This document shows, piece by piece, positions 35,032 to 38,618 of a stretch of 64,000 nucleotides of DNA. The stretch spans positions 62,001-126,000 of the forward strand of contig NZ_JASCQG010000003.1 of NCBI RefSeq assembly GCF_030005555.1. Direction: 5' to 3'. Source of the DNA: Empedobacter sedimenti. Lineage in GTDB: Bacteria; Bacteroidota; Bacteroidia; Flavobacteriales; Weeksellaceae. The stretch's first letter is position 1. Every line of letters starts with the position of its first letter. The translations under genes were made by a program, and so were the position numbers. The notes under the pieces were generated by a model. That model saw only the letters and a program-made list of their open reading frames with translations. It had not been told where the DNA came from and ran no database searches.

Positions 35032-35565
35032 TTATTTTAAAATCTGCTTGAATTTAGATTTGAATTTTGCAATTTTTGGTCCAACTACTGCTGAACAATA
35101 AGGTTGATCAGGATTTTCGTTATAATAACCTTGATGATAATCTTCGGCTGGCCAAAATTTATCTAAAGACTCTATTGTTGTTACGAATTTATCGTCATAC
35201 AAAGTTCCGTTATCAAACTCTTTTAAAGATTCTTCTGCTTGATTTTTTTGTTCTTCAGATGTGTAAAAAATACTCGAACGATATTGTGTACCAACATCAT
35301 TTCCTTGTCTATTTAGTTGTGTTGGATTATGAATATTCCAAAAAATTTCTAATAACTCTGGATATGAAATCACTTCATTATCAAATGTAATTTCAACTAC
35401 TTCGGCATGTTTTGTATCTGTATCACAAACTTGTCGATATGTTGGATTGTCCACATCTCCACCTGTAAATCCAGAAATTGCACTTTCTACTCCATTAATA
35501 GAATTGAAAATTCCTTCTGAACACCAAAAACAACCAGCTCCTAAAACTGCAATTTCTTTACTCAT
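35032..35565 (-). CDS. msrA: Peptide methionine-(S)-S-oxide reductase
   Basis: A 177-residue MsrA, which repairs methionine-S-sulfoxide in proteins. The catalytic Cys is C12 in GAGCFWCSEG, and the family segments ISGFTGGDVDNPTYRQVC, HAEVVEITFD and AEDYHQGYYNENPDQPYC are intact. There is no signal peptide, so it acts in the cytoplasm. It is not fused to MsrB. It lies downstream of the Lrp-type gene on the same strand, separated by a strong terminator. Confidence 0.96.
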   Translation of the reverse strand: MSKEIAVLGAGCFWCSEGIFNSINGVESAISGFTGGDVDNPTYRQVCDTDTKHAEVVEITFDNEVISYPELLEIFWNIHNPTQLNRQGNDVGTQYRSSIFYTSEEQKNQAEESLKEFDNGTLYDDKFVTTIESLDKFWPAEDYHQGYYNENPDQPYCSAVVGPKIAKFKSKFKQILK

Positions 35566-35633: not shown

Positions 35634-36095
35634 TTATAATAATTGATATGCTGTATCATCTTTTACATCACCAATTACAAATGTACTATGTGTACTTCCG
35701 ATAACCTTGATTGTAGTCAATTTATTTACCATAAAATCACGGTATTCATCCATATTTTCAAAGGACATTTTGATAATATAATCATAATCACCACTTACAT
35801 GGTAACTAGCCTGAACTTCTTTTAAAGTTACAATTTCATTCTCAAAAATCTTAATGTTATCAGCAGAATGCTGTTGTAATTTAATGTGACTAAACACCAA
35901 AAGTTCTTTATTAATAAGTCTTCTATTTACAAGAGCTACATATTTAGAAATAATTCCAGATTTTTCTAATTTCTTAATTCGCTCATGGATTGCAGTTGAA
36001 GAAAGATTCAACTTATCAGATAATTCCTTATAAGTTATTTTACTGTTTTCTTGTAAGTACATTAGTAGTTGTTGGTCGAGAGTGTCAAATTTCAT
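35634..36095 (-). CDS. Lrp/AsnC family transcriptional regulator
   Basis: A 153-residue Lrp/AsnC regulator. The N-terminal winged helix-turn-helix (DQQLLMYLQENSKITYKELSDKLNLSSTAIHERIKKLEKSGII) is followed by the effector-binding RAM domain (VQASYHVSGDYDYIIKMSFENMDEYRDFM). Such proteins sense amino acids and often act as local regulators. It is divergent from metK across a 340-nt gap that holds the metK promoter and SAM-II riboswitch. It could act on lysine or methionine genes, but the effector cannot be told from sequence. Confidence 0.92.
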   Translation of the reverse strand: MKFDTLDQQLLMYLQENSKITYKELSDKLNLSSTAIHERIKKLEKSGIISKYVALVNRRLINKELLVFSHIKLQQHSADNIKIFENEIVTLKEVQASYHVSGDYDYIIKMSFENMDEYRDFMVNKLTTIKVIGSTHSTFVIGDVKDDTAYQLL

Positions 36096-36312
36096 GAATA
36101 TTAATTTTTTTCTAAAGTAATAACTTTTTTTTGAATATTTATCTATTTAAAAACATTTTTTTAATACTATACAGAAATTAATATTAAAAACTTGCTAATA
36201 TCCAATGATTAACAAGAGTAGATTAATCAGTAAAATTAATTGATTTAACAGATGAAATAGCAAATTAAAATATAAATAAACCAAAATACTTTTCAGTTTC
36301 ATTATATCATTG

Positions 36313-36320
36313 TATATTTG
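36313..36320 (+). promoter_or_regulatory. metK promoter -7 box
   Basis: TATATTTG matches TAnnTTTG and sits 16 nt upstream of the SAM-II aptamer, so the transcript would begin just before the aptamer. Confidence 0.6.
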
Positions 36321-36336
36321 AGCTCGAAAAATCGTA

Positions 36337-36387
36337 GAGGAAAGATTTGACTGATTGCAACCTCATAAAACAATTGCTAAAGCAGGA
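36337..36387 (+). promoter_or_regulatory. SAM-II riboswitch in the metK leader
   Basis: The leader matches the SAM-II aptamer in order: stem GAGG (36337-36340) pairing with CCTC (36361-36364), the loop core GATTTGA, then TTGCAA immediately before the closing strand, an A-rich stretch, then TTGCTAAAGC with a pseudoknot partner CAGG (36384-36387). This layout follows the published SAM-II consensus (GAUUUnA...UUGCAA...GCUAAA). It lies about 50 nt upstream of metK, the S-adenosylmethionine synthetase gene, so SAM would repress its own synthesis. The identification is from pattern memory, without a covariance search. Confidence 0.82.
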
Positions 36388-36434
36388 CTTCAGTTGACTT
36401 CTTCCCTATTTTATATTTTTAAAATAATTATATA

Positions 36435-37694
36435 ATGTCATATTTATTTACATCAGAATCAGTATCTGAAGGGCATCCAGATAAACTTGCCGACCAAATT
36501 TCTGACTCTATCTTAGATCACTTTTTAGCATTTGACGCAAAAAGTAAAGTGGCTTGTGAAACTTTAGTTACTACGGGACAAGTTGTATTAGCTGGAGAAG
36601 TAAAATCTAACGCTTATATCGATTTACAACGTGTGGCTAGAGAAACAATCGCTGAAATTGGTTACACAAAAAGTGAATATATGTTTGATGCTAATTCTTG
36701 TGGAATTTTATCAGCTATTCACGAGCAATCTCCAGAAATCAACCAAGGTGTTGTTCGTACTTCTGACGAAGAACAAGGAGCTGGTGATCAAGGAATGATG
36801 TTTGGTTACGCTACTAGCGAAACAGAAAACTACATGCCTTTAGCATTAGATTTATCTCACAAAATCTTAAAAGAATTATCTAATATTCGTAAAAACGAAA
36901 TTGAATTATTACCTTATTTACGTCCTGATGCAAAATCTCAGGTTACAATTGAATATGATAATGACAATAAACCTGTTCGTATTGATACAATCGTTATTTC
37001 TACGCAACATGATGACTTCGCTAACGAAGAAGCGATGCGTGATAAAATTACAAATGATTTAATTAACATTTTAATTCCTCGAGTTAAAGCTCAGTTACCT
37101 GTTCATATTCGTGATTTATTTACTGATGATATTAAATATCACATTAATCCAACAGGAAAATTCGTAATTGGAGGACCTCACGGAGATACAGGTTTAACAG
37201 GTCGTAAAATTATTGTAGATACTTATGGAGGAAAAGGTGCACACGGAGGTGGAGCATTTTCTGGAAAAGATCCTTCAAAAGTAGACCGTTCTGCTGCTTA
37301 TGCTGCTCGTCACATTGCAAAAAACTTAGTTGCAGCTGGTTTAGCTGACGAAGTTTTAGTACAAGTTTCGTATGCAATTGGTGTTGCTGCTCCTGTCTCT
37401 TTATTAGTAAATACATTCGGAACACAAAAAGTTAATTTAACTGAAGGTGAAATTTCGAAAAAAGTTTCTGAGATTTTTGATATGAAACCTTTCGCTATCG
37501 AGCAAAGATTAAAATTAAGAAATCCTATTTACAAAGAAACTGCATCTTACGGACACCTAGGACGTCAACCAGAAACTGTAACAAAACGTTTTGAATCTGC
37601 AAATGGACAAGACGTTGTAGAAGTTGAAGTTGAGTTATTTACTTGGGAGAAATTAGATTTCGTAGACAAAGTAAAAGAAGCTTTCGGATTATAA
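36435..37694 (+). CDS. metK: S-adenosylmethionine synthetase
   Basis: A 419-residue methionine adenosyltransferase, making SAM from methionine and ATP. The ATP/methionine-binding motifs [27 protein letters not shown] and [13 protein letters not shown] are intact and the length is normal. The leader carries a SAM-II riboswitch, giving feedback control by the product. A bidirectional terminator follows the stop codon. Confidence 0.97.
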
Positions 37695-37713
37695 TCTGAA
37701 ATACATCATAATA

Positions 37714-37740
37714 AAAAAGTCGCTAAAAAGCGACTTTTTT
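37714..37740. terminator. Bidirectional terminator after metK
   Basis: An 11- to 12-bp stem with loop AAAA and GTCGCT/AGCGAC at its core has A/T runs on both sides. Confidence 0.85.
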
Positions 37741-37762
37741 GTTGAACTATTGTTATCAAAAA

Positions 37763-38134
37763 TCATTTAACCAACCCATTTACTCTCCAAGTTTGATTAG
37801 ATAAATTATACGAAATATTAAGACTATCTTTTGTCATCATAATTAACCTTGTTGGTGTCCAATCAATATTTCTTAATGTATTTGCACCCGTCATTTCCAT
37901 CTTAATATCCTTTATTGAAGCGACTTTTCCATTTTGAACTTCAAAATCAAAATTATACGAGTTATTCTTCTGCGAAATTTTTACGACTCCATTTCCTTCA
38001 TAACTAGAAATCGAATCTTTGTAAATAATATGACGTTGATATTCTGAACTATAAACAGAATTCTCTGCATCATCTTCATTATTACATGAAAATAAAACAC
38101 AAAAAATTGAAACGAATAATAAAACATACTTCAT
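37763..38134 (-). CDS. Small lipoprotein (paralogue pair, copy A)
   Basis: A 123-residue lipoprotein with lipobox LFSC (C17), followed by the acidic NNEDD stretch typical of Bacteroidota surface-lipoprotein signals. Its layout matches the neighbouring lipoprotein at 38235-38618: a short YSSEY/GTY start, a 'nnngvvk/gsvfv' strand, a 'YNFDFEV/YNFAFSD' strand, a 'SLNISYNLS/KLTILYTKD' strand and a C-terminal TWRVN/TWRAN. The two are probably paralogues. The fold is small and beta-rich; function is unknown. Confidence 0.72.
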   Translation of the reverse strand: MKYVLLFVSIFCVLFSCNNEDDAENSVYSSEYQRHIIYKDSISSYEGNGVVKISQKNNSYNFDFEVQNGKVASIKDIKMEMTGANTLRNIDWTPTRLIMMTKDSLNISYNLSNQTWRVNGLVK

Positions 38135-38234: not shown

Positions 38235-38618
38235 TTATCTTGTAGCGTTTGCTCTCCAAGTTTTACCATCTTTTGTGTAAAGAATTGTAAGCTTTTTGCT
38301 ATCAATTGTAATAAAAGACGAAGCACTAGATCCTACACTAACTAAAGAGTTATCACCTTTTTTCTCAAACTCAATACCATTCAAATCTGGAATTTTATCA
38401 GAAAAAGCAAAATTATACTTTGTTCCACTTGCAATTTTTGTAACAAATACACTTCCATTATCATTAGAAACTGTTTTATCTCCATCAACATAACTTACAC
38501 TTCCTTTGTATGTCCCTGCAAAAAAATCGTTGTTTGCTGGATCATCATCGTTGCTACAAGCTGTAAATACAAATAATGCAAAAAAAGTTACTGCCAAAAA
38601 TTTTAATAAATTCTTCAT
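38235..38618 (-). CDS. Small lipoprotein (paralogue pair, copy B)
   Basis: A 127-residue lipoprotein with signal MKNLLKFLAVTFFALFVFTAC (C21) followed by SNDDD, a surface-export-type acidic patch. The mature chain is beta-rich (GTYKGSVSYVDGDKTVSNDNGSVFV) and ends GKTWRANATR, matching the end of the neighbouring paralogue. It is separated from copy A by a terminator, so each is probably expressed alone. No catalytic motif is seen. Confidence 0.72.
   Translation of the reverse strand: MKNLLKFLAVTFFALFVFTACSNDDDPANNDFFAGTYKGSVSYVDGDKTVSNDNGSVFVTKIASGTKYNFAFSDKIPDLNGIEFEKKGDNSLVSVGSSASSFITIDSKKLTILYTKDGKTWRANATR

Follow-up and report, generated by a model that had tools for sequence, protein, structure and literature searches.

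A SAM-II riboswitch ahead of metK in Empedobacter sedimenti with a predicted anti-aptamer arm that may control a start region lacking a Shine-Dalgarno sequence

The window analyzed here is a 64,000-nucleotide (nt) stretch of Empedobacter sedimenti DNA (contig NZ_JASCQG010000003.1, positions 62,001 to 126,000), and our subject within it is the leader of metK, the gene for S-adenosylmethionine (SAM) synthetase, which carries a SAM-II riboswitch aptamer. An earlier note, made from the letters of the sequence, had recognized a SAM-II layout ahead of metK in a flavobacterium. Every motif it named (GAGG/CCTC, GATTTGA, TTGCAA, GCTAAA, and a pseudoknot partner, possibly CAG) is present, and the covariance search it proposed returned the Rfam family RF01726 well above the cut-off. 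The identity of metK is borne out by TIGR01034 together with three Pfam domains, and the flavobacterial host by the nearest two metK genes among 52 named records, those of Chishuiella changwenlii (89% DNA identity) and Empedobacter tilapiae (88%). A promoter box, likewise claimed, lies directly upstream and is of the Bacteroidota type. The features of the leader and its gene are the following.

36313-36320, + strand: promoter -7 element TATATTTG, which fits TAHHTTTG of Flavobacterium johnsoniae (PMC6847099)
36325-36326, + strand: probable transcript start, 4-5 nt past the -7 element (spacing per PMC6847099)
36331-36390, + strand: SAM-II aptamer, RF01726 ("long loop"), matched over the full 60 positions of the Rfam model at 69.2 bits (gathering cut-off 44), E 2.8e-11
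36337-36340, + strand: GAGG, P1 5' strand, paired with 36361-36364 (Rfam structure line and sequence)
36344-36350, + strand: GATTTGA (sequence)
36351-36353, + strand: CTG, putative P2 pseudoknot 5' strand, complementary to CAG at 36383-36385
36355-36360, + strand: TTGCAA (sequence)
36361-36364, + strand: CCTC, P1 3' strand (Rfam structure line and sequence)
36376-36381, + strand: GCTAAA (sequence), ending 53 nt before the ATG
36383-36385, + strand: CAG, putative P2 pseudoknot 3' strand, complementary to CTG at 36351-36353
36435-37694, + strand: metK, S-adenosylmethionine synthetase, 419 amino acids (NCBIfam TIGR01034, 528.6 bits; Pfam S-AdoMet_synt N, M, and C domains)

Positions 36331-36390 are a SAM-II aptamer. 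RF01726 was the sole gathering-level Rfam match within the window, and among the 32 matches to RF01726 across the genome at E≤10 it was the only one above the cut-off; the remaining 31, of which the runner-up scored 24.7 bits, were taken as chance. The strands of the putative P2 pseudoknot read CTG and CAG in 66 of 85 metK leaders of relatives (a set defined below) and CCG and CGG in two leaders of genus g85. Own strands form 2.67 of 3 pairs, compared to 2.55 when strands are swapped between leaders (the largest of 2000 swaps gave 2.66), with little covariation; some rows pair poorly, perhaps partly because the offset was fixed. Because the ATG of metK is at 36435, the aptamer ends 45-50 nt upstream of the start. 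A check of the sequence found no GG over 36387-36434, and the leader is therefore without a Shine-Dalgarno (SD)-like core, as had also been remarked; SD sequences are lacking in members of this phylum (PMC6847099). Many Flavobacterium johnsoniae promoters start their transcript 4-5 nt after the -7 element (PMC6847099), and because TATATTTG fits the TAHHTTTG consensus we place the transcript start near 36325. A scan for sigma-70-type promoters, which was not made for this phylum, gave 9 sites against 10.4 in shuffles and was set aside.

For its lineage this aptamer is ordinary: it adds one more member to a known family, and the family is expected in such hosts. The earlier note had taken the lineage to be an unusual one for SAM-II, a view that the literature does not bear out. 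A paper of 2005 already noted the element in the Bacteroides group (PMC1273637), one of 2007 assigned SAM-II to Bacteroidetes (PMC2258182), and one of 2010 listed RF01726 as "SAM-II long loops" from Bacteroidetes and from marine samples (PMC2864571). At E≤0.001, RF01726 was found in all 14 genomes of the genus, in 308 of 320 genomes (29 of 33 genera) of the family, in 92 of 138 genomes of an order sample, and in 19 of 138 genomes of a phylum sample, all 19 lying within this order or class; these samples overlap, and the larger searches filter more strictly, with the result that weak matches are lost. The gene downstream is metK in 163 of 163 whole-genome loci (159 by script, 4 by inspection), the family loci coming from the best 150 matches listed, a sample that leans to high scores, and in 50 of 52 named loci (49 by script, L187 by inspection), which were selected with a search pattern that allows the aptamer hardly any variation.

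Several side observations concern this distribution. Two named loci from uncultured Bacteroidetes (L172 and L189) place SAM-II before an O-acetylhomoserine sulfhydrylase gene (TIGR01326). RF01726 is missing from all nine genomes of genus g3 (G017-G025); in the six of these that were searched (metK loci L226-L231) metK is present without the aptamer, and in five of the six a promoter-like box, TAAATTTG, lies tens of bases upstream of its ATG. Two RF01726 matches each were found in 12 family genomes (G035, G041, G057, G086, G105, G107, G117, G118, G135, G188 of genus g6, G241, and G250). In another genome of genus g6 (G104, 97% complete) the protein search found no metK and the RF01726 match is weak (E 9.9e-4), perhaps because of an assembly gap. 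At nine loci (L083-L086, L088, L155-L158) the aptamer matches span ~103-109 nt instead of 60, with the insert ahead of GCTAAA. At eight others (L009-L015, L020) a CTCGAAAAATCGAG-like stretch lies just 5' of P1 and may form a small 5' hairpin; by eye it is weaker in the window's leader.

Beyond the aptamer, the unconstrained fold of the leader predicts a second structure, in which the stretch that follows CAG pairs back onto the sensor.

36390-36409, + strand: candidate anti-aptamer arm, predicted to pair with 36334-36354 in the unconstrained fold (own z -2.3 to -2.4, p ~0.03)
36334-36354, + strand: aptamer segment open to invasion by the arm, predicted to pair with 36390-36409 in the unconstrained fold; it spans the P1 5' strand, the GATTTG core, and the P2 5' strand

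To weigh this pairing among relatives, we computed how strongly each aptamer forms a duplex with the stretch downstream of it and set that energy against those obtained with dinucleotide shuffles of the same stretch. The main set comprised 85 metK leaders, no more than 80% alike, from the 159 script-extracted whole-genome loci (L080, L087, L090, and L148 failed the extraction pattern and stand outside these tests, though all precede metK). We found a mean z of -2.54, with 84 of 85 leaders negative and 56 of 85 at p<0.05, while the controls gave -0.02 (upstream flank) and 0.12 (coding start). Aptamers paired better with their own arms than with exchanged ones, by 3.96 kcal/mol (double centring; permutation sd 0.31), and the advantage was above zero in 77 of 85 leaders. 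Averaged by taxon, the test was negative in 55 of 56 genera and 12 of 13 families, and within the genus it held in 14 of 14 leaders. The replication set, 24 of the 49 named loci that are <80% like the 159 and each other, gave 23 negative values and a mean of -2.26; several named loci beyond these 24 probably come from the same genomes as the whole-genome set, and L172, L187, and L189, which failed the script, are outside the 49. Taken separately, the two sulfhydrylase leaders gave z -1.7 (p 0.07) for L172 and -2.0 (p 0.05) for L189.

In 44 of 56 genera the predicted arm pairs (P>0.5) involve the P1 5' strand, and in 47 of 56 they involve the loop before TTGC. By eye, the leaders of relatives keep a like arrangement in different letters, for example GGCTGATTGC with GCAATTAGCC and GGATAGATTTGGC with GCCAAATCTTCC. 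We did not count column-wise covariation on a 14-sequence alignment, in which the arm, judged by eye, occupies two or more registers against the aptamer, so that fixed columns would mix unlike positions; the tests relied instead on shuffling and swapping sequence by sequence. We conclude that complementarity of the stretch 3' of the aptamer to P1, loop, and pseudoknot strand, predicted from sequence, is well supported across Flavobacteriales, and we suggest that the working switch of this lineage extends beyond the 60 positions of the Rfam model.

When the aptamer is held folded, the constrained fold predicts that the freed part of the leader turns toward the start codon.

36407-36413, + strand: U-rich strand, predicted to pair with 36420-36426 with the aptamer held (constrained fold)
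36420-36426, + strand: A-rich strand before the start codon, predicted partner of 36407-36413 (constrained fold)
36395-36398, + strand: UGAC, predicted to pair with 36437-36440, from the start codon's last base onwards, with the aptamer held (constrained fold)

The predicted UGAC pairing is a feature of the window's leader that the 14 leaders of the genus do not keep in common. Across the 85 leaders, opening the region from -18 to +10 was predicted to cost 3.91 kcal/mol in the free leader (shuffled 4.75; z -0.58) and 6.17 kcal/mol with the aptamer held (shuffled 5.04; z +0.77). The difference between the two states (2.26 vs 0.29 shuffled) is larger than in the shuffles for 65 of the 85 leaders and for 44 of the 56 genera; in the window's leader the cost rises from 2.83 to 5.28. 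A start region that is harder to open with the aptamer held is what an OFF switch would show, the kind expected for metK. Three further start windows were tried after this first result was known, and two of them (-20 to +20 and -15 to +3) point in the same direction in the 85 leaders. In the replication set, the window from -15 to +3 was the only significant one of the four (15 of 24, p 0.013). Thus, pairing of the arm or the U-tract with the start region is likely according to these folding models, if not uniform across relatives.

Stepwise folding of the leader kept P1 up to a transcript end at 36398 and formed the anti-aptamer by 36406; the SAM-bound aptamer would therefore have to prevail within about 20 nt of transcription. 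The predicted energy gap favors the anti-aptamer state by a mean of 15.9 kcal/mol (pseudoknot and SAM uncounted), and because of this gap we suggest that the decision falls during transcription and not at equilibrium.

On balance, and with confidence slightly better than even, we read the leader as a SAM-II riboswitch whose expression platform is the anti-aptamer arm, acting as a translational OFF switch by a helix swap. At low SAM, the arm would invade P1, the loop, and the P2 5' strand and unfold the aptamer, and the A/U-rich, SD-less start region would stay open for translation of metK. At high SAM, the bound aptamer would resist invasion while the arm is transcribed (~20 nt, 36386 to 36406), and the released arm and U-tract would fold onto the start region, lowering translation. 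The earlier note had suspected that switching here differs from masking of the ribosome site by the pseudoknot. That suspicion gains from the conserved anti-aptamer arm between aptamer and start; even so, the end point we favor remains a blocked start region, closed by a second helix, and this is the less certain part.

A number of results weigh against the helix-swap reading. For the arm, the window's own leader reaches only p ~0.03, 281 of 3449 other stretches of the window match its pairing with the aptamer by raw energy, and the minimum-energy fold of the whole leader is like that of shuffles (z 0.06) and uninformative. The evidence from this one leader is modest, and the claim for the arm therefore rests on comparison among relatives, in which family f13 is positive (0.43). 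For the start region, the window from -30 to +3 was without effect in the 85 leaders, and its sign was reversed in the 24; the replication set gave 12 of 24 (p 0.29) for -18 to +10 and 11 of 24 for -20 to +20, neither significant; and within the genus 11 of 14 leaders were positive, several near zero. Direct duplexes between arm and start are weak (mean z -0.44 and -0.63 in the 85 leaders, +0.08 and +0.37 in the window's leader). The folding models, finally, omit the pseudoknot and the ligand.

Other outputs have to be set against this reading. In the classical SAM-II output, described for a Sargasso Sea example and the S. meliloti metA riboswitch (PMC9373788), the SAM-bound pseudoknot itself masks the ribosome site. 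We consider such direct masking improbable here because the end of GCTAAA lies 42-121 nt from the ATG in the 85 leaders (median 72; 53 nt in the window) and the window's leader has no SD sequence to mask, in a phylum whose members lack one (PMC6847099). Transcription attenuation, in which an intrinsic terminator would form once SAM frees the arm, is likewise improbable, because a terminator-like element between GCTAAA and the ATG occurs in 0 of 85 leaders (0.9 expected from shuffles) and none is seen in the window's own; the scan behind these counts needs at least three G-C pairs, misses A/U-only stems, and left the anti-aptamer hairpin itself unscored. The swap between aptamer and anti-aptamer could also end with the released pyrimidine-rich arm serving as a site of Rho-dependent termination or of RNA decay, an output that we regard as possible but unlikely. 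It shares all of the evidence for the arm, and the unevenness of the start-region effect speaks for it, as does the C/U-rich arm of the window's leader, since C/U-rich stretches can load Rho. Against it stand the presence of the start-region effect on average and the length of the leader, which at ~110 nt is short for Rho.

Since the tests of the arm give no direction, they would equally accommodate a switch in which SAM turns metK on and the anti-aptamer is the closed state. The start region, however, is easier to open than with shuffled spacers when the leader is free and harder when the aptamer is held, and repression by SAM is the expected sense for a gene that makes SAM; we therefore judge an ON switch about as improbable as direct masking. 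It is hardly credible that the RF01726 match marks a SAM-II relative that has lost SAM binding: the score is 25 bits above the cut-off, the core letters are intact, and metK follows in every one of the 163 whole-genome loci. A spermidine-sensing variant was considered from the title of a paper and dropped, as that paper concerns SAM-I (PMC10853860).

Among the closest known systems is RF01726 as listed for this same lineage (PMC2864571), which the aptamer matches at full length; the difference is that the 60-position model stops 5 nt after CAG, without the anti-aptamer arm. With the SAM-II riboswitches of Proteobacteria (RF00521; S. meliloti metA and metZ; PMC9373788) the leader shares the aptamer class and the association with methionine and SAM genes, whereas SD masking by P2 or an intrinsic terminator, described there, is not seen here. 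The helix-swap platforms of other riboswitch classes (PMC2258182) resemble it in that a downstream strand competes with an aptamer strand, and differ in their end point, which here appears to be an A/U-rich, SD-less start region. Searches of the open-licence literature, supplements aside (details of RF01726 sit in one), turned up no account of RF01726 with an anti-aptamer platform. The arm, lying outside the Rfam model and not found in that literature, is the part that may be new; the aptamer itself is already known.

The surroundings of the leader can be described briefly. The sole terminator-like site in 36000-38000 (0.6 in shuffles) follows metK. An Lrp/AsnC-family regulator gene is divergent to metK, with msrA beyond it, and two neighboring small open reading frames have lipoprotein-like starts by eye and no Pfam match at E≤0.001.

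37709-37744, + strand: terminator-like hairpin after metK
35634-36095, - strand: Lrp/AsnC-family regulator gene (PF01037)
35032-35565, - strand: msrA (PF01625)
37763-38134 and 38235-38618, - strand: small open reading frames of 123 and 127 amino acids

We give an even chance to the broader proposition that the SAM-II riboswitches of Flavobacteriales share a platform not described before, in which an arm drifts in sequence while keeping complementarity to its own aptamer, the choice between a SAM-bound and an unfolded aptamer ahead of the ribosome's landing site falls co-transcriptionally, and an SD-less start is gated directly. If true, this shared arm platform would show clearly that a riboswitch can govern translation without SD pairing. 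The pair of aptamer and anti-aptamer before an A/U-rich start, found in 55 of the 56 genera tested, offers a concrete system for riboswitch control in SD-less bacteria, and the extra strand able to unfold the sensor suggests how SAM sensors may switch genes in such organisms.
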